The notes beneath the pieces are model-generated. The model had not been told where the DNA came from. It saw only the letters and a program-made list of their open reading frames with translations, and searched no databases. Below, in pieces: positions 27,541 to 59,980 of a DNA stretch of 64,000 nucleotides (positions within the stretch are counted from its first letter, which is position 1; the number at the start of each line of letters is the position of its first letter). Both the position numbers and the translations under genes were made by a program. The DNA is taken from the NCBI RefSeq assembly GCF_019393635.1, contig NC_057867.1, positions 61,641,992-61,705,991 of the forward strand, in the 5' to 3' direction. This DNA comes from Dromiciops gliroides. Its lineage: Eukaryota > Chordata > Mammalia > Microbiotheria > Microbiotheriidae.

Positions 27541-27576
27541 TCGTGCCGGAGACAGCGGCCAGCCAGCCTGCGCACC

Positions 27577-30931: not shown

Positions 30932-31357
30932 TCTAGCCTGTCTCCCTACAATTGCCAGGCTCCATGAAGCAGGAGCTGTGGTCCAGGTAGGACCATTAGA
31001 CTTTTCATTGCATAACTTCAACCCAGGACATAAAATATATGTAAAGAATATTCAGAGAACCAGTGGAACCCAACCTGCCTGGGAAGGACCTTTTCAGGTA
31101 TTATTGACAACTCCTACTGCCATTAAAATTGGTGAAAAAGACTCATGGATTCATTGCTCTCATGTAAAGCCTGCACCATTAATAGGTGAAGAGATTTCAA
31201 ATAGAGGATACTGTTCATTTATTACCAATTTTACTTACAGGCAATACTCCCATCCCTCTGGGCAGCTTCTCTGCCTTCCCATTTTAGTGCACAGGCTGCT
31301 GAACTATGTCAGTCTTATAATCAGTATGCTTTTAAGAATTGTAGGATGTGGCTAGAA
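30932..31357 (+). mobile_element. ERV pol fragment (integrase C-terminal region)
   Basis: The plus-strand frame 30876-31355 contains about 80 codons that read as the C-terminal domain of a gammaretrovirus-type integrase. Motifs include a FNPGHKIYVKN basic stretch, a W..PF segment and LLTTPTAIKI followed by WIHCSHVKPAP. No LTR, catalytic core, gag or env is attached. The fragment replaces or interrupts the L1 3' UTR on both sides. It is an incomplete old remnant with no prospect of activity. Confidence 0.75.
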
Positions 31358-40799: not shown

Positions 40800-41480
40800 G
40801 GATTTATGAGTGTCCACAGAATTGTCTTCCCATGATAACCAGGGAAGACAAAATGACCAACTATGATTTTTTTCTTAGATTTCACAACCAGGATTGTCTA
40901 CTGTATTTTTTAGATCTGCTTGGAGTTAGGGAGGATGGGGGAGTTCACCATACTTTTTCCTGCTACTCTTATTTTAACTCCACTCCCACAGAATGGTCTT
41001 TATGACAAAATGCACAAAAGGGAACATCTGATGCAAATGGGAATGTGAGGAGGTGATGATAGGAGGAAGGATAGATTTGAATTAGTAATACCCATTCTTA
41101 TGAGCCAACCAATTTTACCCTGTAGTTCTAGTTTATTCCAGATGAGGTTGCTTAGAAAAACAACAAAGGATAGCAGATCTTTTAAGATCCCTTAGTTTAC
41201 TTTATCCAACCTGTCAGCTATTACAGAAGCTCCCTAAATGGTATAGAATCTTAGTCTAAAATGATCCCAGATTTTTTTTGTCCAACCCCCCCCCAATAAA
41301 GAATGAATCCCCTCTATGACATAACTCAGAAATGGGTGGACAACTGAATTTTATCCACCTCGATATACAATTATTAGAGGCAAATTTGGGCTTTCTTTAA
41401 GGAAAAGCTTTGTAAGAACTAGAGAAGTCAAAGAGGAGAATGGGTTACTCATTTTGGTTTGTATTGTCCCAGTGGGGTAT
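40800..41480 (+). repeat. Outlying copy of the hairpin repeat unit, decayed
   Basis: Follows array phrases in order: CACAAAAGGGAACATCTGAT (3' arm region), TACCCATTCTTATGAGCCAA, CCTGTAGTTCTAG, AAGATCCCTTAGTTTACTTT and ATCCAACCTGTCAGCTATTA. It lies just left of the RTE insertion, which may separate it from the array. Confidence 0.6.
40979..41043 (+). ncRNA. Decayed hairpin (H2)
   Basis: The 3' arm GGGAACATCTGATGCAAATGGG is recognisable. The 5' arm is shortened to CCCACAGAATGGTCTTTATG and no longer pairs along its length. Probably a dead copy. Confidence 0.25.
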
Positions 41481-41599: not shown

Positions 41600-44175
41600 G
41601 CTGTAGCATGTGTAGCAGCCATACCTCAGTAAAACCATCTCAACAAATTGGATAAACCAGAATGAAGGCAAAAAACGGGCTTCAAACTCCCGGGTGAGTT
41701 AGGGTATGTCTACCCAAAGCATGTGAAGACTTCCCCCAGTGGAACAGGTGGATGAGAGCAATTTGTTGCAATAGACCATTAAGGTGGTGAAAGTGGGTGT
41801 TGTCAAGCACTTAGAGCTTGGTCAGACATCAAAGATGCCAGTCATCCACTGCATCCTGGGCCATCACCAGTTGTCTTCACTTTTATCTTGCCATTGTACT
41901 TTGATGACTCTGGAAGAGTGAAAATAATGACTTCATGCAACTCTGCCTCACTTAAGTACAATTCATTTGCAAGTCAAAATATCACCCATCACCCATCATT
42001 CACTATTTTACAATGTTATCAACCCTGAAGTCCTGTGGCAATGGACAAGTAATGAAGCAGTAGGTGCAGATACACTGGGAGCTGTAGTCATCCCCTGCAC
42101 AGAGGCATCCCAAGCCATAGATAGGGTCATCATCTCACTGAACTGAAGCAGCAGTGGGATTTGGCAGCCCCTTGGGTTTCTAAGCAGCTTTTAAAAAAAG
42201 GACTGCACTGTTCACCTCTCCACTGTTCGTGCTGGAATCTAGCATCCTAAAAATTGTCTGCTTCACCCAATCCTGGCCTACTTACTGTGATGAGTGGGAA
42301 GCCCACCCTGCATCTGAAACAGCAACAAAAAACGTGCATTTTTTGCAAAGATGCATCTACTCACCATTGGTACATGGAATGTGCATATGCTCATGGAAAA
42401 CATGAAATCCAGTAGACCTGAAAGACAAATAGCTCTTGTTGAAAGAGAACTTAGCAGGTATTGAATCCATATTGTCAGCCCTAAGCAAAACAAAGCTGAC
42501 AGATGAAAGCCAACTTAATGAAGCTGGAGCTGGATACACATTTCTCTGGAGTGGCCACTGTGATAAGGAGTGCTATCATAGGTTTTACAATTAGATCTAG
42601 TCAGCAAATCAATGACTGGCTTGACAATTCAACTACCACTTGCAAGAAAGCACCATACCACCACCACCAATGCCTATGTTCCCATCATGATGAATCTTGA
42701 TGAGGTCTAAGAAAAATATTATGAGGACTTGGAAATCCTCATCATCAATGTGCTTAGGACAAGCTTGCAATTCTGGGTGACTTTAATGCCAGAGTAGGCA
42801 CAGACTGTCAGAAATGGCAGTGAGTCATTGGGAGAAACAGAGTCAAAAAAAAAAAAGCAACAGCCATAGTCACTTACTACTTAAGACTTGTGCATCTCAC
42901 AACCTCATCATCAACACTGTCTTCCATTTACCTAAACGCAAGCAAATGTTGTGGATACACTCAGCAAACATTGTCACTTAGTATACCACATCATCATAAG
43001 AGACAGGCAAGATGTGAGTGATGAAGGCAATGTGTGGTGCAGAGTGCCGAACTGAACTTTCACATTCCACAAAAGCAAAGTATGATGCTCTCACGCTTTT
43101 CCAGTCACCAATGGAGTGAAGAAGGACTATGTACTTGCTCATGCTTTTTAGCACGTTTTCTGTGCTGTTGTCAGATGCTGTCAACAAGGATGAAAATGGC
43201 AGCGAGGTCAGCTATGGTGCTGATGGTAAACTGTTTAAAAGGCTACAAGCTATGACTAAAAGGGAGAGCTGGTGCACAATTTTTCTGTTCACAGATGACC
43301 GTGCACTCAATGAAGCCTCTGAGGCTTAGACACCACAGAGTATAGATCGATTCTCTGCCACTTAGTATAATCAGCACCAAGAAAACCCAAGATCTTCACC
43401 AGCGACGATTACACCATCCATATATGGGGTCATTGGCTATAGCAAATGAAGAAATTTTGATACTGTGGATAAGTTCACTTATCTTGACAGTCAGTATACT
43501 TTCCAAGGATGTCCACATAGATGATGAGATTGATATACACTTTGCCAGAGGTAGCTCAGCATTTGGGAGGCTCCAAAAGAAAGTGTGGGAGAGAAGAGTA
43601 GTATTAGGCTGAATACCAAACTGAAGGTCTACAGAGTTGTTGTGCTGACTTCATTGTTGTATGCCTATAAAACCTGAACAGTCTACCAGCACCATGACAG
43701 AAAACTAAACCACTTCCATTCTAAATGTTTTAGGAAGATTGTGAAGATTACCTTGCAAGATTAGGTACCAGACAGAGGCCCTTTCTCGAGCTGCCAAGCA
43801 TTCAGACTCTACTGCCCAACTTGCACAAAGTAAAGGCTCACACAGAGGTCAGAAGAAGCAGAACAAGGACACCCTCAAGGTCTCTCTAAAGAACTTTAGT
43901 ATCTATTGTGAGATATGGGAAACAGTCAAATGATCACCCAGTATGGCATGCCCACATCAAAGAAGCAGTGCTCTATGAGCAAAGCAGAAATGCAGTAGGA
44001 TAAAGGAAACGTGAAATGCACAAACCTAGAGACAATGCCATCACATATGTTCAAATGGACTATTTGTAGCTGACCTGTGGTAGAGCCTTCCAAGATCATA
44101 TTGGACTGATCAGCAAGTCAAACACACTGTACCTTGATGCCATTGATCCTCTTTGAGCATGAAGGACAAACAACA
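41600..44175 (+). mobile_element. RTE-clade LINE, internally deleted
   Basis: The endonuclease region reads LTIGTWNVHMLMEN-like at 42360 and, after frameshifts, a GDFNARVGTDCQ-like stretch at about 42775-42810. The sequence then jumps to the RT C-terminus near 43130 (SDAVNKDENG, FTDDRALNEASEA). There follow TKLKVYRVVVLTSLLYAYKT and AAKHSDST-like wording, and the 3' end carries TTTGAGCATGAAGGACAAACAAC. Most of the RT palm is missing and every frame is broken. It immediately precedes the hairpin array. Confidence 0.72.
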
Positions 44176-44310
44176 ACTGTCCTATCTCCTCACCTAAATT
44201 CTTGAAATAAAGAATTACAAAAGACCCGTTATCAGGAATGCTATAGATTATGGGATCCATGTCCCAACAGGATTTCTTATTCTTAATCTTTCAAGAATGT
44301 TCTGCCCCAA

Positions 44311-44380
44311 CAACTTCATATGAGCAAGGTTATCCCTTTGAAAATATATACAAAATGGAACTCCTGGTACAAATGGGACA
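44311..44380 (+). ncRNA. Decayed miRNA-like hairpin (H3)
   Basis: 5' arm ACTTCATATGAGCAAGGTTA and 3' arm GGAACTCCTGGTACAAATGGG pair only partly. First recognisable unit of the array, directly after the RTE element. Confidence 0.3.
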
Positions 44381-44969
44381 AGTAGATAGGGTAATGGAAA
44401 GATGGACAGGTATTAAGTTAGGATTATTCTTATGAGTCGACCAGTTATTTGTAACCTGTAGTACTGCTAATTCTTGGGTAAGATCCATTTAAACACGACC
44501 TAAAAAATCATAGATCTTAGGACCAGAAAAACTTCAAAGTTTTCCTCACTGAAATTTTCAGAAAGTATAAGACTTTCTCTATACTGTAGGATTTCAATAT
44601 TTAAAAGTGACTTCACAGCACTAATTCATCCCTCTATTTAAAGATGAGAATAGAGCTGAGAAATTGTGTAGTTAATTCAATATGTACTTATTAGTGTAAA
44701 ATTTAGAGTTGGTATAAGGAAAAACTCCCTAACAATTAAAGCTATGCGACAGTTTAGTGGACTTCCGGAGAATCTGATACTTACATGCTTTTAGAAATTG
44801 TGGCAAAGTCTAAAAGACTAATCTTGGGGATGTGGTAGATTATGAAATTCTGATTCTAGTCAAGTCACTTTTAACTAGAGTAGGTGGTGGTAAACTATAA
44901 GATCTTTACCACAGCAAGATCTCAGTCTACTCTGGTATTAACAGGTGGGGATAATCTTCCCACAACCAC

Positions 44970-45040
44970 CACAACAAAGTTGTGCATAGGATGCCATCGT
45001 TGTCATTATCTACAATGTGGAACAACTGGGTAGAGGGCAA
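44970..45040 (+). ncRNA. Decayed miRNA-like hairpin (H3b)
   Basis: Arms ACAAAGTTGTGCATAGGATGC and GGAACAACTGGGTAGAGGGC align with the array consensus at their outer ends. Pairing in the middle is poor. Confidence 0.25.
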
Positions 45041-45568
45041 ATAGAGATAACAGAAGAAAGATGAAGTCATGCTATATTAGTCATGCTAATAGTACTGAGC
45101 CAGCAAATTGGATATGTACCATTTATGCACATCCTAGTGGGTCAACACTGATGTGAGTCCACATGAAACAGGTGGGTAAACCAGCAATACAATTAAGAGA
45201 TTTCAAAGTTATGAAACCCTAGAGAGGATGTCTCATTCAACCTATTACAAAGCACTAACAGTGCATACTATGATGTAGAGTTTCAGAAGTGAATGACATC
45301 ATAGAACAAATATTTCATCCCCATTATCAGAAGAAACTTGCATATGAATAACAAAGTACAGAAATGTAAGGTCAATTAAAATCAATTAAATAGACAATTT
45401 GGGTCAAATGTAAGCTTCTTTTTATAAACAACTTCATAATATTTAAAGCTACTGAAAAGGAAGATAGTCACTGGAAGTCTTTGTGCAGAGTATGGAACAC
45501 TACTCTATTATACCCAGAAGGGTCCCTGACTAGTCTGAATATTTAGGGTGAAATGTTTTGCCCTAGTA

Positions 45569-45633
45569 ACTTCATTTGCACAAGATCCTCTTTTTGACTA
45601 AATTCACAAATGGACTATCTTGTACAAATGGAA
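45569..45633 (+). ncRNA. miRNA-like hairpin (H4)
   Basis: 5' arm CTTCATTTGCACAAGATCCT, 3' arm GGACTATCTTGTACAAATGG. About 17 of 22 positions pair, counting wobbles. Loop about 21 bases containing GACTAAATTCAC. Moderately preserved. Confidence 0.45.
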
Positions 45634-45684
45634 CATTCATCTATAAAGGTGAATATTTCAATTTATCAAACCTAGTTCTGGGAA

Positions 45685-46025
45685 TTGTAAGGGTCTAATT
45701 AAGTTCTGGAATGATTATGTATGAGAATTTTTAGGAGATGGTCTGATGACCCAATAACAAGATACAGCTGGAAGTAGTGTGTAAGGACCACCCATACTCT
45801 GGACCTATAAAAAGCTTCCATACTCAGTTTGCTGGTCAGGTCGTGGTTGAAGCAGGCTCGTGGAGGAGGACTTGAGGAAGAACCAGACCAGGCTGGAACT
45901 CTAGGCTAGATAGGCCTTTTATTAACTCCATGTGTTTTTTTTCTAAAACCTAGTATGCTTTAATAAATGCTTAATGCCCAAAGACTGGTGCTAAAGCTTC
46001 TAATTTAAGGCGACCACACATTTAG
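45685..46025 (+). mobile_element. LTR-like element inside the array
   Basis: Interrupts the unit plan with promoter-like order: a TATA-type CTATAAAAAGCTTCC near 45806, a core with GGTCGTGGTTGAAGCAGG, then TTTTATTAACTCC and the polyadenylation signal TAATAAATGC near 45960, ending around AAGGCGACCACACA or ATCACA. This fits a solo LTR read rightward. Exact borders and target duplication could not be fixed. It is read toward most of the array. Confidence 0.5.
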
Positions 46026-46417
46026 ATTTTAAACATCACAGTTGGCTTACAGACATAAATATAGACTTATGTCTTCCTTTCATGATACACCTAAGTTATC
46101 CATGTCCCTCTGAGAGTACTAATTATAAATTATAGCACCACAGAGTGTGTCTGAATGGGACTGGTGGGAAAACAGTGTATCATTAAAAGATTGTAAACTG
46201 TAAGATCTGTTTCCAATCTATGACAGTGTAAGAGACCACTCTACAACATAGAATCTTGCAGGTGGCAATAACTCATGAGGAAAATGAATCCATCCTAATA
46301 TGTAAATAAAGTCCACCTATAATACAGTAGAATATCTAATTCACATCACTTCAACATGTATTTAGGATTAATGACTTTACATATTATTTAAGGAAAATTT
46401 ACTTAATATTCTTTTTT

Positions 46418-46553
46418 TGGCAGGCGATTGAGGGTTAAGTGACTTGCCCAGGGTCACACAGGTAGTAAGTGTCAAGTGTCTGAGGCCGGATTTGAACTCA
46501 GGTCTTCCTGAATCCAGGGCTGGTGCTTTATTCACTGTGCCACCTAGCTACCC
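46418..46553 (-). mobile_element. Short-type SINE, antisense
   Basis: GGCAGGCGATTGAGGGTTAA to CACCTAGCTACCCC. CTTAATATTCTTTTTT flanks it (about 46402 and 46554). The target is the poly(T) start of the retrocopy to its right. Confidence 0.9.
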
Positions 46554-46554
46554 C

Positions 46555-47430
46555 TTAATATTCTTTTTTTTTCCTTGAAGGGACCTCTTTATTACATTGA
46601 ACCCAGATGCTCCCAAGGCCACAAGGATCAAAGGGAAAGGACCAGAAGTAAAGATTTTCAAACCCATCTATACACAACTCATAAAAATATATATACAGTT
46701 CCCTTACTAAGCAGCAGATAATTTGGGACCTACCTGTGGGCATCCTTGATGAAGACTGCACTGGAGGGGGGGGGGAAACAGCCCATGTATAGGCACAAGG
46801 TGCTATCTCCAAGTACCAACCTTACTGCTTATGTGAGTGCTATGGTAGGGATGCTAAAAGATTCACCTCAAACTGCCTGTTCCTTTCACATGGACAAGAA
46901 ACAAAACAAAAAACCCAAATCCTAAAGCTTCAAGGAAATGGAGTTGCATCTCAGCAGATGGAAAACTCTGGGCTCACACTTTTTCTGCAGGCCTGCAAAG
47001 AGCTATTTGGGGAGGAGAGGAGGAGGGCAGAACAAGAAATGAACCTTTTTTGCTTTTCTCCCAAAGGTTCAGAGCTGCAGATAGTCCCTTATCACCAGTG
47101 ACAGCTGTGCATTCAAGTCCAAGTTCTCCTTCACAAGCCCCTTCACAAGGCAAACAACAGATGTGAGCAGATGGGGCTTGGAGGAACCGTCCTCGGGCAT
47201 GGATGGGGGTGGGGGAGGGGGCAGGGACAGGAATCATTATTTGCGTTAAAGGAAAAAGGAAGAACTAAACCAAGAGGCACAAACACCAAGAAGCCATTAT
47301 GAGTTTCCCGTGGATAAATGCAGGGCCCAGGCTGAGGGGAGACTGACACGCCCTCAGCCTTCAGCTCACGAGCTTTCCTTGGTTTGCTGAGGAGGAATGG
47401 GGCCATGCCAACACACATCATTAGCTACTG
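46555..47430 (-). pseudogene. Probable processed retrocopy (mostly mRNA 3' UTR), source unknown
   Basis: About 870 bases of unique, GC-richer sequence breaks the array plan. On the minus strand it ends with AATAAA (plus TTTATT at 46587-46592), then about 15 bases and an A-rich tail (the T-run at 46561-46570), as in a reverse-transcribed mRNA. The minus-strand frame 47143-47421 starts MMCVGMAPFLLSKPRKAREL, which could be the end of a coding region. I do not recognise the parent gene. Confidence 0.45.
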
Positions 47431-47830
47431 ATCCTGTGGCAGAGATTCGAATTGTGAATCAATTTAATAACCCGAGAAATTTAATAATCATAAGAAACTG
47501 AAAGGGGATTTAAAAAACCCCAATTAACCACCTCACTGCAGCCCCCCACCTCCCCCGAGACTGTAGCAGAAATCCCTAGACAAGTGTCACCCAGGAATGC
47601 TAAGGCTTCTATGTAGGTGCCCCCAACGTCCTACTGCCACTTGAAGCCTTAATAGCTTAAAGCTACTGGATTCCAACTAAGCAGTTGGCTGCCTAGGTAA
47701 GTAGAGAGCTCATCCTCATTAAATGTCACAAGGTATACTCCCAAGGACCAATTATTAGGACTTTCTTCATAGCATATAGTCTCCACCTACTGTTGTACTT
47801 CAGAGTGGGTGGAATGTTTGGCCTCCAAAA

Positions 47831-47895
47831 CACCTTTACACAAGATACTCTTATTTTACAGTATCCACAAAGACAAAAACCTGGTAAAAAGGGAA
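47831..47895 (+). ncRNA. Decayed C-type hairpin (H5)
   Basis: CACCTTTACACAAGATACTC is a good 5' arm. The 3' arm is reduced to ACAAAAACCTGGTAAAAAGGG and lacks the GAGCAT segment. Only about 170 bases from H6, so part of the spacer is deleted. Confidence 0.3.
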
Positions 47896-48001
47896 CAACT
47901 CAACAAACAAGGTTGTTTTACAGTTGAATCAAGTCCTTGACACAGTGGGCTCTCTGCTTACTCTTGGTGGTGCTTCAGCTGTTAGTTTCTGCCCCTACAA
48001 A

Positions 48002-48067
48002 CTCATTTTTTTTAAAAGATGCTGTGTTTGATAGAATCCACAAATGGAGCATCCAGTACAAACAGGG
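48002..48067 (+). ncRNA. A-type hairpin, damaged 5' arm (H6)
   Basis: 3' arm GGAGCATCCAGTACAAACAG is intact. The 5' arm is CTCATTTTTTTTAAAAGATG, where a T-run replaces TTTGTAC. The A-type approach phrase CAGCTGTTAGTTTCTGCCCC precedes it. Confidence 0.35.
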
Positions 48068-48556
48068 CAAGTGTAACATGTGGCAAAAAACCCTAAGTCG
48101 ATATACTAATTAGGCTCATCCTTCTAAGACCACTAGTTTTAGGCACAGACCATTTCTGAATGTGACTCACTGAAAAACAAAATGGCACAAGATTGAAGGG
48201 ACCTTTCACTTATAACATCCTCCAGTTTCTGCAATGTAACCTATTACAAAGAGATGAAGCTATTGATATAGAATATCAGAGGTGATAAGTCATCTTATCA
48301 TGAGTTCATTCCAGTATGTGAAGGAAACATCTACAATATGGTTCAGAAATAATCAATTTCATTTATCCCAACATTCATTAGAAGTGACAAATTTAAACAT
48401 TTTAAAAAGAATTTCTTTTCTTCACTGGACATCTCAATGTAAAGTCTCAGAGACCAATCTGTAGGATGGTTGTGGAGCAGGCCACGGGATGCTTTCTTCA
48501 TAGCAGAGTCTCGGCCTTCTTTTGTGCTTTAAGGCGGAGTATTATACCCCCAACAA

Positions 48557-48621
48557 CTTCCTTTGTACAACATGCTCTATTTGATGGTACTTAAACAACA
48601 GAGCATCTTGTACAAAAGGAG
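48557..48621 (+). ncRNA. B-type miRNA-like hairpin (H7)
   Basis: 5' arm CTTCCTTTGTACAACATGCT, 3' arm AGAGCATCTTGTACAAAAGG. About 20 of 22 positions pair, including one wobble. Loop ATTTGATGGTACTTAAACAAC (21 bases). Approach phrase TTATACCCCCAACAA. Confidence 0.55.
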
Positions 48622-48874
48622 CAAGTGGAGGAAATGGCAGGAGAGTGAAATAGTATATATTAATTGCATTAATCCTTCTGAGTGAAGCATTGTAGCAGAC
48701 TGTACTGGTACATGTCCAGATGACCATGGCTATAAAAACCAACCATACCATCAGGGAATCCCAGGAATTTGAGATCCCTTAGATATCTTATCTAACCTAT
48801 AAGGCAATAAATACAGGAGTCTAATCTACAATATAACATTTAAGAAGAGAAAGTGACCTTAGTGGTGAACAAGT

Positions 48875-48990
48875 ACATACATACATATACATATATATAC
48901 ACACACACACACACATATATACATATGTGTGAGGAGGAATGGGGCCATGCCAACACACATCATTAGGGGTGTGTGTGTGTGTGTGTATAT
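48875..48990. repeat. Microsatellite in a C-type spacer, with foreign filler
   Basis: (CATA)n, (TA)n and (CA)n, then a 37-base copy of 47388-47424 at 48930-48966, then (GT)n. The filler is described in the findings. Confidence 0.9.
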
Positions 48991-49270
48991 CTGAAGATCC
49001 TATCAACCCAAAAGCCCAGAAATGACCAATTCAATTAAACTGACTTGAATGGAGATCTGCCAGGAAGACATGCATTAACTAATATCAAATTCAAGCCTGA
49101 TAGGCAATACAAACTTCCTCATGCTCTGAGCTGTCCAATACTGAGTAATGGCTAAAAAAAAGTGTGATGATCAAGCTGTAAGAATATCACAGAATGGATC
49201 TGGGAACCGTCATCCAAAACAGTCTCTACTTTCCCATTGTTTTTCTTGGTAGGGTGTTCTACTCCCACCA

Positions 49271-49341
49271 ACCGATTTTTTTTTTAATAAAAGATGTTGT
49301 TTGGACGTAAAACACAAATGGAACACCTGGTACGAGCAGGG
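49271..49341 (+). ncRNA. C-type hairpin, damaged 5' arm (H8)
   Basis: 3' arm GGAACACCTGGTACGAGCAG. The 5' arm has a T-run (ACCGATTTTTTTTTAATAAA) in place of TTTGCAC. Pairing is weak except AAGATGTTGTTT with GAACACCT. Confidence 0.3.
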
Positions 49342-49875
49342 CAGATAGCAGATGGTTGGGATATGTTCATCCTTCTAGGAGCAGCAGTTGTAGACTCTAG
49401 CACTTCCCTGAGGGTCTGAATGAGACTGGTAGGAAAAATGAAACATAACATTAAAGGTCTTGTTGCTTATAAGATGCCATTTTTCTCAAACTGTCACACA
49501 GTACAGGGGACTGCTATATTATGTACTGACCCATGAGGTGAGTAAATGCATCCTAATATGTAAAAAATGTAGTCCAACTACAAAATAGTCCCAAAATTAA
49601 TGCTAAATTCATTTAATTCACTTCAACATGCTTTTAGATGTGTTAACAGTGGGAATTATTTAAGGTTAAAAAACCCCTTAGCAATACTTAGAGCTATTCC
49701 AAAGTGGAATTGGCTTCCAAGAGATACAGAAGGCTCCTCAGGACCAGTTACAGCTCAGCAAAGTATGGAGGACCAACTTTCAATCAAGCTGTTTTTGAGT
49801 TCAATATGGGTCTTCACTCCCAGCAAGGTCTCTGCTTACTCTTAGTTATTCAGCTGTTAGCTTCTGCTCCATCAA

Positions 49876-49940
49876 CCTCATCTGTACAAGATGCTCTTTT
49901 TTGACAGAATTCACAAATGGAGCATCTGGTACAAATGGGG
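49876..49940 (+). ncRNA. A-type miRNA-like hairpin (H9)
   Basis: 5' arm CCTCATCTGTACAAGATGCT, 3' arm GGAGCATCTGGTACAAATGG. About 20 of 22 pair, with two U-G wobbles. Loop about 21 bases around TTGACAGAATTCACAAA. Lies in the near-identical block duplicated at 55.26-56.23 kb (twin H18). Confidence 0.6.
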
Positions 49941-50517
49941 CAGGTGGAGTGAATGGCAAGAGGATGGAAGTCCATATACCAGTTAGGCTCTTCCCTCTGA
50001 GAGCACTGGTCTTAGACTATAAGCACCACAGACCATATCTAAGTGTGGCAAACTGTTAAAAAGAACTCTTGTGTATAAGATTCCTGAGAGTATTCTTCAT
50101 CCAACCTATTACACAGAACAAGGGACCACTCTATGACACAGAATGTCAGGGGTGATAGTTGCCTAAGGGGAACATGAGTCCATTTCAGTAGGTGAAGAAG
50201 GAAACCCATCAGAATTCAGACATCAATAATAGTAAAATAATAATTCAGAAATAAATGGCTAACCAATTTAATTGCCTTCAAAATTCATTCAAGAGTACCA
50301 ACCTTAGGCATTATTTGGGGGGAATTTTCCTTATATTTAAAGCTATTCAGAAGTAGAATGGGCTTACTTAGGCACGAAGACTTTACTGGATGTTCTGAAG
50401 TAAAGTCTCAATGATCCCACCTTGGGGTGGTTGTAGAGAAGGTTATGGGACACCTTCTTCCTAGCAGGGTCTCTGCCTTCTCTTGTGCTTCTAGCTATAA
50501 TGTTAAGCTTCCAACAA

Positions 50518-50582
50518 CTTCCTTTGTACGAAATGCTCTATCTGATGATAGTTACACAACAGAGCATCTAGTACAAAGGAGG
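50518..50582 (+). ncRNA. B-type miRNA-like hairpin (H10)
   Basis: 5' arm CTTCCTTTGTACGAAATGCT, 3' arm AGAGCATCTAGTACAAAGGA. 20 of 22 positions pair with one wobble. Loop ATCTGATGATAGTTACACAAC. Twin of H19. Confidence 0.6.
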
Positions 50583-51125
50583 CAAGTGGAGGAGATGGTA
50601 GGATAGTGAAAGAGTACATATTAATTGTGCTAATCCTCCTGAGCAAACTAGTTGTAGCAAATTGTACTTGTATATGTCTGAATGACATTGGCTATAAAAA
50701 GCACCCCATCCAGTGAAGGAGTCTCAGAGAATTGAATTTCCTCAGATATTTTCATCTAATGTATCAGGCATATAAGAGTTTTTTTCCATGATGTAAAATA
50801 TAAGGACAGAGAGCGATCTAGAAGTTAACTATTCCATAGCCATATCTGAAGAAACATCTCATAACCCAAACCATTCAGAAATGAACAGCTAATTCAATAA
50901 AATTTACTTGAACAGGCATTTACCAATATAACATGCGCTATTACAAAATAACATTTGTTTTGCAATATATACTTTCTTGTGTTTAGAGCTGTCCAGTGTT
51001 GAGAAATGACTATACATACTCACGATGACCCACAAAGACGTCACAGAGTAGATTATGTAACTCTCATATTACCAGAGTGTTTATCTCCTCTTGTTCTTCT
51101 AAGTGTGGTATTCTGCCCCCACCAA

Positions 51126-51190
51126 CCTCTTTTGCACAAGATGCTCTTTCTAACACAATACACCAAAAGGAGCATCCGGTACAAATACAG
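51126..51190 (+). ncRNA. C-type miRNA-like hairpin (H11)
   Basis: 5' arm CCTCTTTTGCACAAGATGCT, 3' arm GGAGCATCCGGTACAAATAC. Upper stem (GATGCTCT/GGAGCATC) perfect apart from one wobble. Three mismatches in the middle. Loop about 20 bases. Confidence 0.5.
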
Positions 51191-51718
51191 CAGGTGGAGG
51201 ATGGTTGGATATATACTTGTTATACTCATTCTTCCAGGAGAACCTATATAGCCCATAGCACCTCCAAGCACATATAAATGAGGTCAGTAAGGAAAACAAA
51301 ACAAATTAAACAAAATTAAGAGTTTTCTCATTTATAATAATATCTCTACATTTTTCTCTTCCAAACCATCACATGGCACGAGAGACCATTCTATCACACT
51401 CTTACCTAGGAGACCAATAAGTCCATCTCTATATGTGAAAAATAAAACCAAACTACAAAATAATTCAGAAATGCATGCTTAAGCTGAAGTATCAACTTCA
51501 GGAATTACATAAGATAAAAGAAAACACAACAATATTTAGAGCTGTTCCAAAGTGGAACTGTTGAAAAGGAATGTAGGAGGTACCTCAGGACTAATTATGA
51601 CTCAGGAAAATATGGAAGACCACTCAACCAGCATATTTTCAAGATGAATATGGGTCCTCATGCCAGCAGGATCTCTGCTTACTCTTGGTTATTTAACTGT
51701 TAGCTTCTACTCCAACAA

Positions 51719-51782
51719 CCTCATTTGTACAAGATGCTCTTTTTGACAGAACTCACAAACAGAGCATCTGGTACGAATGGGG
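51719..51782 (+). ncRNA. A-type miRNA-like hairpin (H12)
   Basis: 5' arm CCTCATTTGTACAAGATGCT, 3' arm AGAGCATCTGGTACGAATGG. 21 of 22 positions pair, two as U-G wobbles. Loop around TTGACAGAACTCACAAAC. Confidence 0.6.
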
Positions 51783-52338
51783 CAAGGGTGGAGCATGTGA
51801 CAGGAAGACACAAGTCAATAGTTAAGCACATTGTTCTGAGTCTTAGTCTCAGATATTAGCACTATCAGCCATGTGTGAACAAAGTTCGTTGGACAAGGAA
51901 ATATAATATTGAAGGATCTCTCGCTTATAAGATCCTTCAGTTTCCACAACCTAACCTATTGTAAATACAAAAGACTAAGCTATGATACAGAATGTCAGAA
52001 GTGATAGTCTTCTAAAAGGAATCTAAGTCCATTTCAGTATTGAAAGAGGTCCATTTGTAACATCATCCAAAAATTGTTAAGCAATTTAATTCATTTCGAC
52101 ATTCAATTAGAATTGTAAACTTTAAACATTGTTAAAGAAAAAAAAAACCTTCCTATTTAAAAGCTATTTAAATGTATAATGGGTTGCTCAGGCATGCAGA
52201 CTTCCCCTTCACTGGATGTCCTGAAGTGTCAATGATCAATCCTTAGGGTGGTGGCAGAGGAGGCTATGGGACACCTTCCTCACAGCAAGGTTTCTGCTTT
52301 CTCTTGTACTTCAAGGTGGAGTATTGCACCCCCAACAA

Positions 52339-52403
52339 CCTCCTTTGTACAAAATGCTCTATTTAATGGTATTTACACAACAGAGCATCTTGTACAAAGG
52401 GGG
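52339..52403 (+). ncRNA. B-type miRNA-like hairpin, best example (H13)
   Basis: 5' arm CCTCCTTTGTACAAAATGCT (52339-52360 in full) pairs with AGAGCATCTTGTACAAAGGG (52382-52403). 20 Watson-Crick pairs, one U-G wobble and one A-C mismatch out of 22, with a 21-base loop ATTTAATGGTATTTACACAAC. Flanks CACCCCCAACAA and CAAGTGGAGGAG could extend the stem imperfectly. Arm length of 22 and loop size fit a Drosha/Dicer precursor. Confidence 0.65.
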
Positions 52404-53027
52404 CAAGTGGAGGAGAGAATAGAAGAGTGGAGTAGTATATATTAGTTGTGCTAATCCTTCTGAGTAAACCAGTTGTAGCCAATTGTACTGGTTATCTAAT
52501 AGGAATGTGAATCCATTCTAGTATGTGAAGAAGGAAATCCACCTGTAACACAGTTCAGAAACATACAGTTAATTTAATTCACTTCAACATTCATTTAGGA
52601 GTGTCAATTTTAGGCAATTCTTAAGAAACTGCACTGGTGCGTGTCTAGATGAAGTTAGCTGTAAAAACTAACCATGCTGTCATACCATTGGGGATCTTGG
52701 GGATTTGAGATCCCTCAGATATTTTCTCATCTAGCCTATAAACCAATACAGGAGTCCACTCTATGATTTAACATTTAAGAACAGGAAGTGAACTCAGCAG
52801 CTAACTGATCCACAGTCAGATGAAGAAAGATCCTATCAACCAAACAGCTTAGAAACGAATGGATGTGAACAGGCATTTAGACATTTATATGTAAAAAATA
52901 CATTAAAAATTATATCAAATTTGTTATGCCTGATGTGCAATACAAACTTCCTCGTGTTTAGTGACTAAACCAATGTGGGATGATAAACTATCAAGAATGT
53001 CAAACAGTCTATGAGTACATGTACTCA

Positions 53028-53110
53028 TATGTATGTGTATATATACAAACATGTATATGTATATGTACATGTATGTATGTGTATATATACACACACACAT
53101 ATACATATAA
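53028..53110. repeat. Alternating TG/TA/CA microsatellite in a C-type spacer
   Basis: ATGTATGTGTATATATAC repeated with variation, then ACACACACATATACATATAA. It sits at the same place in its unit as the one at 48.88-48.99 kb, so it probably predates the unit's duplication. Confidence 0.88.
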
Positions 53111-53176
53111 ACTCTCATCCCATCAGGTTATCTGTTTACTTTTGTTCTTACGAGTGTAGTGTTCTGCCCCCACCAG

Positions 53177-53240
53177 CCTCTTTTGCACAAGATGCTCTTT
53201 TGTTCAGAAAACACAAAAGGAGCATCTGGTACAAATACGG
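53177..53240 (+). ncRNA. C-type miRNA-like hairpin (H14)
   Basis: 5' arm CCTCTTTTGCACAAGATGCT, 3' arm GGAGCATCTGGTACAAATAC. About 18 of 22 pair. Loop around TTTGTTCAGAAAACACAAAA. Confidence 0.55.
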
Positions 53241-53780
53241 CAGGTGGAGGATGCTTGGGTTTATTCTTACAGGAGAACTAGTTGTAGCATTTTAGAAAGA
53301 ATCTAAATGAAGATATTAAGGAAATGGTAACGTACCATTAAAGTATCTCTCACTTATAAGATCCCTTCTAGTTGGAGCAGTCCAAACTATCGTACGGTAC
53401 AGGAAGACTGGTTGATAACATACTGATCAAGGAGGTCAGTAAGTCCAAGCTAAGATGTGAGAAGTAAAGCCAAACTACAACATAGTTCAGAAATGAAAGC
53501 TTGATCAATTCAATTTCCTTCCACCTTCATTTAAGAGCAGCAACTTCAAGCATTATTTAAGGTAAAGATCAAACAAACCAATAACTTGCCAATATTTAAA
53601 GTTATTCTAAAAGGGGAACTGGTTGCCAAAGAATCTAAGGGGCTCCCCAGGACCAGTTACAGCTCAGCAAAGTATGGAGGCCCATTCCACCTGGATGTTT
53701 TTGAGTTGAATATGGGTCTTCATCCCAGCAAGATCTCTGCCCATTCTTGGCCATCCAGCTGTTAGCTTCTACTCCAACAA

Positions 53781-53844
53781 CCTCATTTGTACAGGATGCT
53801 CTTTTTGACAGAATTCACAAATGGAGCATCTGGTACAAATGGAG
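53781..53844 (+). ncRNA. A-type miRNA-like hairpin (H15)
   Basis: 5' arm CCTCATTTGTACAGGATGCT, 3' arm GGAGCATCTGGTACAAATGG. Three wobbles and few mismatches. Loop around TTTGACAGAATTCACAAA. Confidence 0.6.
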
Positions 53845-54232
53845 CAGGTGAGTTGTATGGTGGGAAGATGGATGGCTACATCTTAGGTATGCTCATTCTG
53901 GAGAGGGCACTAGTTTCAGGTCACAGCACCACAGACCATGTTTAAATGAAGTTCATTAGAAAACAAAATGCACTATTAAAGGACCTCTCACTTTTAAGAT
54001 TCCTCAGAGTTTCCATCGTCCAATCTATCACACTGTACAAGAGACCACTCTATGACATGAAACCTCCTTATATTTAAAGCTATTCAGAAGTAGAACATGC
54101 TGCTTAGGCATGCGGACTTCTTTTCACTGGATGTCTTGAAGTAAAGGGTGGTGGTGGAGCAAGCTATGGGAAACCTTCTTTAGAGTCTCTGCCTTCTCTT
54201 ATGCTTCAAGATGGAGTATTGCACCCCAACGA

Positions 54233-54297
54233 CCTCCTTTTTACAAGATGCTCTATTTGATGATATCTACACAACAGAGCAGCTGGTGCAAAGTGGG
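54233..54297 (+). ncRNA. B-type miRNA-like hairpin (H16)
   Basis: 5' arm CCTCCTTTTTACAAGATGCT, 3' arm AGAGCAGCTGGTGCAAAGTG. About 18 of 22 pair with two wobbles. Loop ATTTGATGATATCTACACAAC. Confidence 0.5.
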
Positions 54298-54812
54298 GAA
54301 AGTAGAAGAAATAGCAAGAGAGCAAAGGAGTATATATTAGTTCTGTTATTCCTTTGAAGTCAATCAGCAGAATGCATACATGTATATCTGCATGAGATTG
54401 GTTGTAAAAATTGTCTATACTATATAGGATCTCAGATATTATATTACCCCAACTAACCTATTAGGTAATACATTAAGAATCCATTCTACAACTTTACATT
54501 TTACAACAGAAAGTGACTTCAGTGGTTGAGTATTCCATAACCATACCCAAAGAATTATTCCAACAACCAAACAGCTCAGAAATGAACAATTCAATAAAAC
54601 TGACTTAAACAGATATTTACAAATATCAATTTTATACCACATTTCTAATACAAACATCTTCAGCTTAAGAAATGTCCAAAATCAAGAAGTGGTTAAATAA
54701 ATTCAAGAAAGATCCACCATCAAAGATATCACAGAGTAGATTACAGAACTCTCAGTGCATCAGAGTCTTTGCCTCCTCTTGTTCTTCTGGTATGGTATTC
54801 TGCCCTCACTAA

Positions 54813-54879
54813 CCTTTTTTGCATAAGACACTTCTCTTTTGACATAAATGTACAAAGGAAGCAGCTTATACAAATAAGG
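54813..54879 (+). ncRNA. C-type hairpin, partly decayed (H17)
   Basis: 5' arm CCTTTTTTGCATAAGACACT, 3' arm GGAAGCAGCTTATACAAATA. TTTGCATAAG pairs with CTTATACAAA across a larger loop. The GATGCTC segment is altered on both sides. Confidence 0.4.
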
Positions 54880-55450
54880 CAAGTGAAGATTAGTGGGAAT
54901 ATTCTTGTTATGCTCATCCTTCCAGGAGAACCAGTTGTAGGAGCCTACAGTACTTCCAAGTGCACCTGAATGAAGTTGGTACAGAAAACAAAACAAATTA
55001 AACAAAATTAAATTTTCTCTTACAAATAAGATCTCATGGTTTTCACTAACTAAACCATCACATGGTACAGGTCAACAGACTATGACATAGAATTTTAGAG
55101 GTGACAGTCAACCTAGTAGATCAGTAAATCCATCCCAATGTGAAAATGAAGCCCAAACACAACATAATTTAGAAATGAATGCTTAATCTAATTCACTTTG
55201 ATCTGCATTTAGGAATGTCAACTTCAGGCATTTAAGATAAAAAACACACAACTTACCAATACTTAGAGCTATTCCAAAGTGGAATTGGCTTCCAAGAGAT
55301 ACAGAAGGCTCCTCAGGACCAGTTACAGCTCAGCAAAGTATGGAGGACCAACTTTCAATCAAGCTGTTTTTGAGTTCAATATGGGTCTTCACTCCCAGCA
55401 AGGTCTCTGCTTACTCTTAGTTATTCAGCTGTTAGCTTCTGCTCCATCAA

Positions 55451-55515
55451 CCTCATCTGTACAAGATGCTCTTTTTTGACAGAATTCACAAATGGAGCAT
55501 CTGGTACAAATGGGG
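55451..55515 (+). ncRNA. A-type miRNA-like hairpin (H18)
   Basis: Identical in sequence to H9 across the hairpin, as part of the large duplication. Confidence 0.6.
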
Positions 55516-56091
55516 CAGGTGGAGTGAATGGCAAGAGGATGGAAGTCCATATACCAGTTAGGCTCTTCCCTCTGAGAGCACTGGTCTTAGACTATAAGCA
55601 CCACAGACCATATCTAAGTGTGGCAAGCTGTTAAAAGAACTCTTGTGTATAAGATTCCTGAGAGTATTCTTCATCCAACCTATTACACAGAACAAGGGAC
55701 CACTCTATGACACAGAATGTCAGGGGTGATAGTTGCCTAAGGGGAACATGAGTCCATTTCAGTAGGTGAAGAAGGAAACCCATCAGAATTCAGACATCAA
55801 TAATAGTAAAATAATAATTCAGAAATAAATGGCTAACCAATTTAATTGCCTTCAAAATTCATTCAAGAGTACCAACCTTAGGCATTATTTGGGGGGAATT
55901 TTCCTTATATTTAAAGCTATTCAGAAGTAGAATGGGCTTACTTAGGCACGAAGACTTTACTGGATGTTCTGAAGTAAAGTCTCAATGATCCCACCTTGGG
56001 GTGGTTGTGGAGCAGGCTATGGGACACCTTCTTCCTAGCAGGGTCTCTGCCTTCTCTTGTGCTTTAAGGGTTAGGGTTAAGCCTCCAACAA

Positions 56092-56156
56092 CTTCCTTTG
56101 TACGAAATGCTCTATCTGATGATAGTTACACAACAGAGCATCTAGTACAAAGGAGG
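56092..56156 (+). ncRNA. B-type miRNA-like hairpin (H19)
   Basis: Identical to H10 across the hairpin, while the approach sequence differs (GCTTTAAGGGTTAGGGTTAAG here). Confidence 0.6.
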
Positions 56157-56463
56157 CAAGTGGAGGAGATGGTAGGATAGTGAAAGAGTACATATTAATT
56201 GTGCTAATCCTCCTGAGCAAACTAGTTGAAGCACACTACTGGAAGTTATGATGGTATGTTGCATTGGTTTATTGTCTCTGCTCATCCTTGTAGGCCCAAA
56301 CTGGTGTGTTTGTAATAGGTAGGATTTTAAACAAATAACACCCACTAAGGAATCTCAGGGTTTTAAGATGCCACAGAATTTGCCTCATCCTATTATCAAA
56401 TATCATAGTTCATCACGCTATGTAAAATTTTAGAGATCAAAGTGACCTTAGATATAAACGATT

Positions 56464-56615
56464 TGGGGGCAGCTGGGTGGCGCAGTGGATAAAACACCGG
56501 CCCTGGATTCAGGAAGACCTGAGTTCAAATCCGGCCTCAAGCACTTGACACTTACTAGCTGAGTGACCCTGGGCAAGTCACATAACCCTCATTGCCCCAC
56601 CAAAAAAAAAAAAAA
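56464..56615 (+). mobile_element. Short-type SINE in the array
   Basis: GGGGGCAGCTGGGTGGCGCA to a pure A tail, with the 13-base duplication GATATAAACGATT at 56451-56463 and 56616-56628. Confidence 0.93.
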
Positions 56616-56935
56616 GATATAAACGATTCCAGCCCCCTACCAGAACAAGGAAGCCCATGAACAACAATGCTCAGGAGCATAAGGCCAATTAAGTTCAATT
56701 TATTTCAGTATGCAATGCTTTTTTCAAATAAAGTTTGAATGGGAAAAAACTCCCCCAAATTTAGAAATATGGCAATGGGGAATGAACTACCCCAGGAAGT
56801 TATTCAATGGAGGTCTCTACACAAGTTCTGAAGGGCCATTCATTCAGGAGGTCGTGTAGCAGATTATGAGAGCCTTAGCACAGCAGGGTTTCTATTTCCT
56901 CTAGTTATTTTAGGTCAAATGTTCTGCCCCCACAA

Positions 56936-56989
56936 TCTCCTTTACACATGATGCTCTTTTTCTGAAATAAGCATTTGCTACAAATGGGG
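56936..56989 (+). ncRNA. Decayed hairpin, last of the array (H20)
   Basis: 5' arm TCTCCTTTACACATGATGCTC is good. The 3' arm is GCATTTGCTACAAATGGGG with part of the loop and arm deleted. Confidence 0.3.
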
Positions 56990-57346
56990 CAAATGGAAGA
57001 CTTGACAAGTGAATAGAAGGGGATTCACTAGTTATCCTTATTCTTCTGAGGCAATCACATTTTGGCATGTTGACCTGATATGCAAGAGGATAGTTTAAAA
57101 GCGAATTGTATTATCAAGGGACATCAGGGCTATTAATATTCCTCAGAGTTTAGCACATCCAACCTACAACTGAGTATAGTAGTCTACTCTGTGATGCATA
57201 ATTTTGAGTGTGAAATGACCACAGACGTCAAACTAGTCCATTTGCATATCAGAGGAATGGAGCCCATTAAAACACAGCTCAGAAATAAATGGTCAATGGA
57301 ATCAATGAACCTCAACATGCATTTAGCAATTACATTAGGCAGAATT

Positions 57347-57507
57347 CTTTTTCTTTCTTTTTTCTTTTTTTTTTTGCGGGGCAATGGTTAAGTGACTTTC
57401 CCAGGGTCACACAGCTAGTAAGTGTCAAGTGTCTGAGGGCAGATTTGAACTCAGGTACTCCTGGATCCAGGGCCGGTGCTTTATCCACTGCGCCACCTAG
57501 CTGCCCC
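57347..57507 (-). mobile_element. Short-type SINE, antisense, in the array's last unit
   Basis: T-rich start, GCGGGGCAATGGTTAAGTGA, end CACCTAGCTGCCCC. CATTAGGCAGAATT is duplicated at 57333-57346 and 57508-57521. Confidence 0.93.
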
Positions 57508-57764
57508 CATTAGGCAGAATTTAAGAAAAAAAACTCCTAATATCTAGTGGTATTCAAAAGTGGAAGGGACAACTCCCCCTCCCTGGGAAAATGAATGGGT
57601 TATACTAATATTCGTATATGTATGCTCTTTCCTCAGAGCCAATAAGTTCTCAGCTATTTCAGACAGAAATATGTCTTTATGAAGTTGGTTAGAAAAAAGT
57701 ATTGTGCCCTGGACTGAAAGTTGTAACTGAAAAAAGAACCTGGATATCCTTTTCAAGAAATCAT

Positions 57765-59980
57765 AAAAAAGAGGGCAATATGATAATAGAAAGATCTACT
57801 GATCAGCTCCTGAAACAAACTCCAAAATGAAAACCCCAAAGAATGGCATTGCCAAAATCTAGAGCTTCCAGCCCTCTAGTAGAAGTTAATAACTTCATGA
57901 AACAAGATAAAAGATAAAAACAAAAGTTTTAACATTGAAACAACAGAATATAAGGTACTGTGTTGTTTTTTAAATCACCTGGAAAACAAATAAGCAGAGA
58001 TCACTTTAAGAATCAGTGTAATAGGGGCAGCTAGATGGCGCAGTGGATAGAGCACTGGCCTTGGATTCAGGAGTACCTGAGTTCAAATCCGGCCTCAGAC
58101 ACTTAACACTTACTAGCTGTGTGACCCTGGGCAAGTCACTTAACCCCCATTGCCTTACTTTAAAAAAAAAAAATCAGTGTAATACCTGAAAGTCATGACA
58201 AAAAGAGCTTATATATCATACTTTTAGAAATCATAAAAGTAAGCAGCCCATATCTCTTAGAAACCTAGTGCAACATAAAAATTAAAAGAATCCACGGGTC
58301 ACCTCCTGAAAGAAATCCCTGGGAAAAAGCAACAATTAGGCATACAACTAAAAAAAAAAAAAACTAGGAAAAACATCCAACCCCCCTGCCACCACTCCAA
58401 AATAGAAATTCTGAAAACCAAAGATTAACAAAACTGAAAGTAAAATAACCATTGAATTAATAATCTAAAAAAAAGACTAGAGCATTGAAATACATATAAA
58501 GCATTAGTTAATTTAATTTAAAAGAGGAAAACCCAAATTTATCAGTCTCAAAAATGAAAAAGAATTCACAACAAATGAAAAAATAAAGGAAATTATCAGA
58601 AAATATTTCATCCAATTATATGTCCATTTCATTGACATGAAATGATTGAGTGTACGAATGTACATTAAATGAAATGGTTGAACATATGCAAAATTTGAAA
58701 TGCTAAGATTTAATGGAACATGAAATGAGTAATTTAAATAACTCAAGTTTCAGAAAAAGAAATTGAACACGTCCTAGATGAAATCCAAAAGGAAAAAAAG
58801 AAATGCAGGACCAGATGGACTTATGAGTAAATTCCAACACACATTCAAAAAACAAATTAAGTGTAGTATTATATAAACTATACTATAAAATAGGAAAAAA
58901 GGAGTCCTACCAAATTCTTCTAATATGGTCTCATACCTTAATCAGAGACAAAATATAAAGAAAAAATATATAGATCAACATTCCTAATGAGCACTGATGT
59001 AAAAATTTTAAATAAAAAAGCTATGGCAATATATCACAAGGATATCATTATGACCAGTTAGATTTATACCAGAAATTCAGTGTTGGTTCAATATTTAAAA
59101 AATTATCAACATAAAAGACCACATTAATAACACAAACAACAAAAAAACATGTGATTATATCAGGAGATACAGAATATAGCTTTTGACAACATGCAATACC
59201 CATTCCTGTTAAGAATACTGGGGAAAAAAACCCCCAAACACAAGAATAAATAGATCTTTCTTAAACATGTTAAATAGTATCTATCTAAAACCAAGACCCA
59301 GCATTATATGTAACAATAATAAACAATAAAATCAGAGATAAAGCAGGGATGTCCATTATAACTGCTAATATAGGGGCTAGAAATGCAATAAGAAAAAAAA
59401 TAAGAGTAATTATAAAAAGTGACCATAAAACCCCCAGATTAAAAAGTAATTGGGAAATGTTTAATAAATAAATACCAATATAGTACAACATAGATAATGT
59501 TTAATTTGTACTTTTCTGAGCCAATTCAGGACCAGAGATCCATTTCTTTTTCAGTCTGACAGCACTGCCCTAGAGTCAACTAAAAAATTAAAACAATAAC
59601 TTTCGCAAAGTTGCATGGCATTAAATCCACATAATAATCAGCATTTCTATATATTGCCAACAAAACTTAGCAGAAGAGAACCAACAAATTCACTAAAATA
59701 AACTATAGAATATACAAAATATTTGTGAGTTTACCTATCAAGACATACATAAGAACTACAGCTAGGTACTCAATAATGCAAATAATTAATTCCATGAATT
59801 GATTGCATTATTTGTATTTGCACTATTCAAAGTTATAACCATATATGTAATATGCTAAATAGCCAACCCAATGGGAATATGCAATGAAAATTTTGAAAAG
59901 TAAGTTTTAGGGTTTTTTTTGAACATGGCCAAAAAAATGTTGAACAAATTAATGAATGAAATTAACTAGAGGTCATCAAT
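57765..59980 (+). mobile_element. L1 ORF2 remnant, sense, with a SINE
   Basis: RT-region wording at 58740-59230 (GAAATCCAAAAGGAAAAAAA, GGACCAGATGGACTTATGAG, CCAGAAATTCAGTGTTGGTT, TTTTGACAACATGCAATACC) and later ORF2 phrases at 59575-59760. Frames are broken throughout. 57765-58500 is AT-rich and less certain. Confidence 0.65.
58024..58171 (+). mobile_element. Short-type SINE
   Basis: GGGGCAGCTAGATGGCGCAG to TACTTTAAAAAAAAAA. Perfect 13-base duplication AATCAGTGTAATA at 58011-58023 and 58172-58184. Confidence 0.93.

Follow-up and report, generated by a model that had tools for sequence, protein, structure and literature searches.

Within a 64,000-nucleotide stretch of the Dromiciops gliroides genome (contig NC_057867.1, forward-strand positions 61,641,992 to 61,705,991; the whole stretch is called the window here, and coordinates are counted from its first letter), the region from 44.3 to 57 kb consists of head-to-tail units that carry copies of one near-palindromic hairpin, and two further copies lie at 12.3 and 41.0 kb. 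We count 21 copies in total (13 intact, 1 borderline and 7 decayed; Table 1) and consider it very likely that the array is a cluster of mir-7371-family microRNAs, read from the minus strand. The family match, hairpin structure, covariation, conservation pattern and tandem architecture can be read directly from the window, and it is on these that the proposal is built.

Hairpin copies in the window

The original prediction, a reading of the letters made before this analysis, had noted that the same imperfect palindrome recurs through the array. This recurrence is real: a 17-base arm (up to 3 mismatches allowed, both strands) occurs 28 times in the window, whereas 100 shuffles contain it 0.38 times on average and never more than 3 times, and the positions listed earlier agree with ours. 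A covariance model trained on 11 array copies (R1; these 11 match it by construction because it was built from them) recovered 20 minus-strand loci at E <= 3.3e-5, that is, 18 of the 19 copies noted earlier and two extra ones at 12,333–12,425 (67.4 bits) and 40,963–41,056 (32.3 bits, E 1.6e-6). A minus-strand match at 12,821 (E 0.67) was treated as noise. The copy at 45.0 kb (h01b, approximately 44,965) was not recovered by R1 at E <= 5; what suggests it is the unit spacing, a weak look-alike sequence and a tree position with little support. The interval originally drawn around the array (44,200–57,760) holds all 19 listed copies but leaves out the intact copy at 12,350–12,408 and the decayed one at about 40,963–41,056.

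Table 1. Hairpin copies and larger units in the window (RF03731, Rfam model of mir-7371, gathering score 62.6 bits; R1, covariance model trained on array copies; z, folding energy relative to shuffles; A, B and C, subfamilies of the copy tree)
Feature	Description	Position	Strand	Evidence
s12	solitary intact hairpin, outside originally noted interval	12350–12408	-	R1 67.4 bits; RF03731 46.1 bits (below gathering); core z -4.9, extended z -6.4, 0/300 shuffles each; compensatory changes
s41	decayed copy, outside originally noted interval	40963–41056	-	R1 32.3 bits, E 1.6e-6; core z -0.8
h01	decayed	44316–44374	-	RF03731 30.2 bits; R1 49.7 bits; z -0.8
h01b	very decayed putative copy, ends approximate	44965–45025	-	no R1 match at E <= 5; z +0.7; spacing and weak tree place
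h02	intact, outside the three subfamilies	45572–45629	-	RF03731 54.3 bits; core z -5.7, extended z -2.3
h03	decayed	47832–47891	-	RF03731 29.5 bits; R1 34.3 bits; z -0.5
h04	decayed, subfamily B	48006–48063	-	RF03731 45.7 bits; z -0.9; tree
h05	intact, subfamily A	48559–48617	-	RF03731 67.0 bits (above gathering); z -7.0
h06	decayed, subfamily C	49257–49354	-	R1 27.7 bits; z -0.6; tree
h07	intact, subfamily B	49878–49936	-	RF03731 67.2 bits; z -5.8
h08	intact, subfamily A	50520–50578	-	RF03731 67.6 bits; z -7.9
h09	intact, subfamily C	51128–51186	-	RF03731 55.5 bits; z -4.4
h10	intact, subfamily B	51721–51778	-	RF03731 72.6 bits; z -5.7
h11	intact, subfamily A	52341–52399	-	RF03731 74.6 bits; z -9.2; 22/22 5p-arm positions paired
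h12	intact, subfamily C	53179–53236	-	RF03731 61.8 bits (just below gathering); z -5.5
h13	intact, subfamily B	53783–53840	-	RF03731 75.7 bits; z -5.7
h14	borderline, subfamily A	54235–54293	-	RF03731 61.1 bits; z -1.8, 11/300 shuffles as stable
h15	intact, subfamily C, divergent arms	54815–54875	-	RF03731 41.5 bits; z -5.0
h16	intact, subfamily B, recently copied from h07, or h07 from it	55453–55511	-	RF03731 67.2 bits; z -6.2
h17	intact, subfamily A, recently copied from h08, or h08 from it	56094–56152	-	RF03731 67.6 bits; z -6.8
h18	decayed	56922–57002	-	R1 34.5 bits; z -0.6
Three-hairpin units	regular units in B A C order, about 1.9 kb per unit	48006–56152	-	self-alignment offsets; tree clades; order permutation
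Recently copied tract	one copy, with h07 and h08	49677–50654		99.3% match to 55252–56228
Recently copied tract	other copy, with h16 and h17	55252–56228		99.3% match to 49677–50654

Folding of individual copies

Each copy was compared with 300 dinucleotide-preserving shuffles, both as a core and as an extended 95-base segment. On the minus strand, the cores of 12 of the 19 array copies (h02, h05, h07 to h13 and h15 to h17) fold with z scores of -4.4 to -9.2 and none of the shuffles is as stable; h14 is borderline, and six copies (at 44316, 44965, 47832, 48006, 49275 and 56938; z -0.9 to +0.7) are indistinct from shuffled sequence. The comparison, which had been proposed with the original prediction as a check on it, consequently divides the array: because of these folds, the 'about 19 hairpins' of that prediction become 12–13 good-looking hairpins (12 intact and one borderline) plus six decayed copies.

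In predicted folds of the 13 intact copies, 6 to 13 additional pairs form within 17 bases below the arms. The lower stem of h11, for example, consists of CCUCCA/UGGGGG and GCC/GGU flanking a small internal loop, and its length is about what Drosha expects. Within the arms, 18 to 22 of the 22 5p positions pair with the 3p side (at least 20 in five copies; the earlier reading had given 20–21 for the best), and 14–17 bases lie between the two 22-base arms (with arm ends assumed from the Rfam model) in precursors of 58–61 bases. These values lie within the ranges that PMC10552650 lists for microRNA annotation, at least 16 complementary arm bases and a loop of 8–40 bases; the same list also asks for at least two reads of 18–25 bases per arm and consistent read 5′ ends.

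Family assignment

A search of the whole window against Rfam gave eight matches at or above the gathering score, all to RF03731 (mir-7371) and all on the minus strand, such that 8 of the 21 copies qualify as members (67.0–75.7 bits). The nearest misses are h12 and h14 (61.8 and 61.1 bits), and between 40 and 60 kb (E <= 0.1) eight more minus-strand copies match below the threshold with 29.5–61.8 bits. The array resembles the RF03731 model in sequence and structure; it differs in its lower stem, which extends beyond the 59-base model, in its three ordered subfamilies and in that five of the 13 intact copies (h02, h09, h12, h15 and s12) score below gathering. The original prediction had written the arms on the plus strand, the opposite of all gathering-level matches, and had missed the likely minus orientation, the order of the subfamilies and the extra lower stem.

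Other models, including mir-7386 and mir-1420 (RF04061), also match between 40 and 60 kb (E <= 0.1), all below their own cut-offs; the best mir-7386 (RF04072) scores, 36.3 bits in 1–44 kb and 36.2 bits in 40–60 kb, do not reach its gathering score of 44 bits. As mir-7371, mir-7386 and mir-1420 are names given in Monodelphis domestica (opossum), and as the short interspersed elements (SINEs) described below have a marsupial look, the label 'marsupial' that was attached to the cluster fits. In the literature searched, the name mir-7371 turned up in one paper, on carp. The family is already catalogued in Rfam; novelty is limited, and so is the surprise of finding it.

A likeness to the miR-506 family and to C19MC, also suggested originally, holds in organisation and fails in sequence. 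No mir-506 model appears among 60 matches in 40–60 kb (E <= 0.1) or 19 matches in 1–44 kb (E <= 0.5). Kinship with C19MC was rejected: the mir-515 (RF00639) match at 53,167–53,250 scores 38.1 bits against a gathering score of 68, about 30 bits short, has a near-equal counterpart on the opposite strand (35.0 bits) and is owed largely to pairing. Matches to mir-297, mir-466, mir-3149 and mir-1277 (at 8.7, 13.2, 48.9 and 53.0 kb) are below cut-off, correspond to simple TG/TA repeats and were likewise rejected.

Tandem architecture

Fifteen of the 18 spacings between neighbouring array copies are 553–844 bases, the others being 174, 452 and 2,260 bases. The strongest self-alignment matches lie at offsets of 1.69–2.05 kb and multiples thereof, with weaker cross-unit matches at other offsets, and a tree of the 19 copies contains three clades, A (n = 5; support 100/100), B (n = 5; 99/98) and C (n = 4; 100/99), although nine of its 16 inner branches are weakly supported. 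Between 48.0 and 56.2 kb the copies, in window coordinates, keep strictly to the order B A C B A C B A C B A C B A, a periodicity that none of 200,000 random label orders of the 14 copies reproduced. As this order is unbroken, we take the three-hairpin cassette of about 1.9 kb to be the unit of tandem duplication. Five copies (h01, h01b, h02, h03 and h18) fall outside the clades, and four of these are decayed. The two tracts that hold h07/h08 and h16/h17 are 99.3% identical over 814 + 153 bases, with about 11 bases between left unaligned; because other within-subfamily pairs are 48–76% identical over 320 bases (gaps counted), this two-hairpin tract of about 1 kb must have been copied or converted recently.

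We read the growth of the array as three steps. A one-hairpin unit of about 0.6 kb gave rise to a three-hairpin unit (A, B and C), this unit of about 1.9 kb was then multiplied in tandem, and the two-hairpin tract was duplicated anew in recent times, with some copies decaying.

Three further observations concern the sequence between the hairpins. The 2,260-base spacing between h02 and h03 (usually about 600 bases) contains a stretch led by a run of T, from about 46,570 to 47,500, that has the look of a processed transcript inserted in minus-strand orientation. A 36-base stretch is present in two exact copies, 47389–47424 and 48931–48966, the second of which lies inside a TG/CA microsatellite as if it were filler in break repair. 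Approximately 28–60 bases downstream of the 3p arm (minus strand), most units carry a stretch near AAG.ACAAGAG.AGGCAGAGACCCTGCTGGGA that is better conserved than most flanking bins and is possibly a small helper hairpin or a binding site.

Conservation and covariation

When 12 units of 620 bases were aligned and gaps scored as differences, pairwise identity came to 0.83 and 0.80 in the two arms, 0.65 in the loop, 0.62 in the lower stems and 0.42 in the rest. Measured on aligned letters only (with the near-identical pairs h07/h16 and h08/h17 excluded from the pair counts), the p-distances among the 13 intact copies are 0.20 (5p), 0.25 (3p), 0.38 (loop), 0.34 (lower stem) and 0.49 (flanks), and those among the eight decayed or borderline copies are 0.36, 0.48, 0.31, 0.44 and 0.52, respectively. 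Intact arms diverge about half as much as the flanks, and the loop more than the arms, which is the pattern of a microRNA gene.

Pairing has been kept through substitution. Among 14 hairpins (13 distinct), both sides have changed in 10 of 23 pairs compared with 3.6 in shuffles, and standard pairs make up 92.6% of 299 cells (23 pairs in 13 distinct hairpins) compared with 88.8%; none of 500 shuffles attains either value, with the caveat that kinship alone can beat shuffles, though rarely for pair counts, and that slid controls are not independent because the structure was derived from the same sequences. In the outlying copy s12, three adjacent pairs are altered jointly on both sides (5p end AUUCACACC, 3p end UGUGUGAAAGG). 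Together with the eight copies at the RF03731 gathering level and the higher conservation of arms than of loop and flanks, this covariation supports the microRNA-cluster interpretation that was first put forward from the hairpins alone.

These data also bear on two other explanations. The palindromes could be the cores of a repeated element (for example, one similar to miniature inverted-repeat transposable elements) or a source of endogenous small interfering RNA from long hairpins or of Piwi-interacting RNA. Although transposons with inverted repeats likewise look like tandem near-perfect palindromes, and the flanking units are indeed repeats, the two conserved 22-base arms, the greater variability of the loop between them, the lower stem present in most copies, substitutions of RNA type (G–U) and scores over a curated microRNA cut-off would be difficult to reconcile with such an origin; moreover, outside the array R1 finds copies only at 12.3 and 41.0 kb in the 64 kb (plus the match of E 0.67). 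We regard this origin as exceedingly improbable. A former microRNA cluster that is now silent in the source species, in which the hairpins look good only because their decay is young, is also highly improbable: the halved divergence of intact arms relative to flanks, the preserved changes on both sides of pairs and the two intact hairpins on the recently copied tract speak against it, even though seven of the 21 copies are clearly decayed, one is borderline, and the arms of h15 and s12 have diverged.

Strand of the array

Several indirect lines indicate that the array is probably read from the minus strand. RF03731 scores higher on this strand in all 12 copies matched on both (for example, 75.7 versus 49.9 bits). 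Stems read as minus contain 36 G–U against 16 A–C pairs in the 12 intact array copies and 57 against 14 in 18 copies, when pairs are picked by their Watson–Crick fraction alone (that is, blind to strand). Read as minus, all 13 copies examined have a UGU at position 21–25; read as plus, one of the 13 does; and the apical UGU motif of primary microRNA transcripts sits near that position. The consensus fold energy is -27.0 on the minus and -9.2 on the plus strand, on an alignment fitted to the minus strand. Base-composition skew was tried as an additional sign of strand and discarded as uninformative: A exceeds T by 0.08 on the plus strand, there is no G/C skew, and the rest of the window is equally variable.

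Other observations weigh against a minus-strand microRNA cluster. Counted as distinct types per column, the G–U excess is modest (18 versus 8, and 23 versus 12), and the alignment behind the consensus fold follows a structure derived from the minus strand, which tilts that comparison towards minus. In nine of 13 copies a CNNC motif lies +19 to +23 bases past the assumed cut, slightly further out than its textbook position of 16–18, and the other four have none inside 30 bases. Over 95 bases, the plus strand folds better in 4 of the 12 intact array copies (h07, h10, h13 and h16), which are all of the intact members of subfamily B, and single-sequence folds leave the strand unsettled; at this length, which includes the lower stem, h02 has a z score of only -2.3 (5/300 shuffles). 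The comparison of arms with flanks is somewhat biased because the intact copies were picked by folding, and the arms of h15 and s12 are nearly as diverged as their flanks (ratios 0.79 and 0.72), with pairing kept. Finally, the covariation term of the RNAalifold consensus is small (+0.07 for 18 copies and -0.97 for 11).

Given that the hairpins are near-palindromic, each strand would yield a hairpin with a similar 5p arm, and transcription of a microRNA cluster from plus, or from plus and minus alike, has to be considered. Good folds on both strands in most intact copies, the four B copies that prefer the plus strand and the plus-strand matches to RF03731 and R1 are in its favour; the scores of these matches are lower, however, and the uniform preference of RF03731, the asymmetry of G–U over A–C, the apical UGU and (on its minus-fitted alignment) the consensus fold point to the minus strand. 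We therefore judge transcription from the plus strand or both to be improbable.

Surrounding sequence

Most of the open reading frames searched gave no indication of their nature: nine of ten long ones had no Pfam match, three further frames also had none, and a search of one frame against PDB sequences was empty. The tenth (30807–31352, plus strand) encodes an integrase C-terminal domain of the murine leukaemia virus type (Pfam MLVIN_C, E 9.7e-16) and is probably a remnant of an endogenous retrovirus. A 41-residue frame, MQSVVSPVTKAIFVALFLFAILLILYVILWYICRDVDNDYI (27580–27702, minus strand), lies within a GC-rich segment (27,001–28,000; GC 0.59, CpG observed/expected ratio 0.45–0.55 versus 0.14 window-wide) and has 22 relatives of 78–95% identity, the two named ones being hypothetical proteins of monkey and vole; it has two matches in Pfam, both under the cut-offs, and is likely to be a single-pass membrane microprotein.

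The segment from approximately 42,300 to 44,000, located between s41 and the main array, has by eye the look of a fragment of an RTE-type long interspersed element. A SINE of about 150 bases is present in many copies in both orientations (for example, 56464–56615, 57361–57509 and 58023–58174), which are 83–93% alike among the 40 opposite-strand matches listed; it resembles a marsupial SINE.

Discussion

Assuming that the array is indeed read from the minus strand, we infer that it is transcribed as a single RNA, and a course of processing with mature ends and targets can be proposed. A long primary transcript, with a promoter expected beyond 57 kb if one minus-strand RNA spans the array, would fold into a series of individual hairpins, each of about 92 bases. 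Drosha/DGCR8 would cut these where the arm helix begins, with about 13 positions of lower stem beneath the cut, and so release precursors of 58–61 bases. Once Dicer had cut away the loop, an arm of about 22 bases, either 5p (seed near UUUGUAC) or 3p (seed near AAGAGCA or UAGAGCA), would be loaded into Argonaute to repress mRNAs with matching sites, predicted to be of the GUACAAA type.

If seeds are defined as positions 2–8 and the Rfam model sets the ends, 10 of 14 hairpins (the 13 intact copies and h14) have the 5p seed UUUGUAC; a single base is different in h10, h14 and h15, and three bases are in s12 (UUCACAC). On the 3p side, the five A copies listed all have the seed UAGAGCA, every one of the four intact B copies has AAGAGCA, as do two of the three intact C copies, and h02, h15 and s12 have other 3p seeds. 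Taken further, the array may be part of a marsupial counterpart of arrays of the MIR-506 or C2MC type, in which the A-B-C cassette, with a mostly common 5p seed and different 3p seeds, is a duplication unit kept uniform by repeated copying. In an outlying member 32 kb away the 5p seed would have become UUCACAC, the opposite arm having changed to match, and a minus-strand cluster from 12.3 to 57 kb would turn over its cassettes under germ-line or placental selection. We offer this extended scenario as a tentative and, in its entirety, rather doubtful conjecture.

Known clusters offer precedents for such an array. In architecture, C2MC of rodents, which lies in intron 10 of Sfmbt2, comes closest: PMC3212979 describes growth from a short unit (MSHORT1; 193 short units) to a long one that holds three microRNA genes (MLONG1) and on to tandem repeats, the units containing B1 elements and CA/TG microsatellites. 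C2MC shares the two-phase growth and is much larger than the array; the likeness is one of architecture. The closest evolutionary analogue is MIR-506, also a fast-evolving multi-copy microRNA cluster, which PMC11031087 presents as eutherian and X-linked, with SLITRK2 and FMR1 as neighbours, an origin from MER91C and expression in testis. No mir-506 model is among the Rfam matches counted above, and the words 'marsupial' and 'opossum' are absent from the main text of PMC11031087. Among marsupials, NOVEL-16 is described in PMC10552650 as a dasyuromorph family with multiple copies of subtle sequence variation, and by this description resembles the array as a marsupial multi-copy microRNA.

A microRNA cluster on the X chromosome of Monodelphis domestica was reportedly described by Devor et al. 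in 2011 (J Hered 102:577); it too is a marsupial microRNA cluster, and it is possibly orthologous to the array.

If expressed, the window would hold a well-ordered microRNA array with apparently no sequence kinship to the eutherian MIR-506 and C19MC arrays. In the A-B-C cassette, the 99.3% identical tract and the outlying copy with its compensatory changes, one window lets duplication, seed change and copying from one member to another be followed. Again provided that it is expressed, such an array would help to ask why mammals repeatedly evolve fast-growing microRNA clusters.

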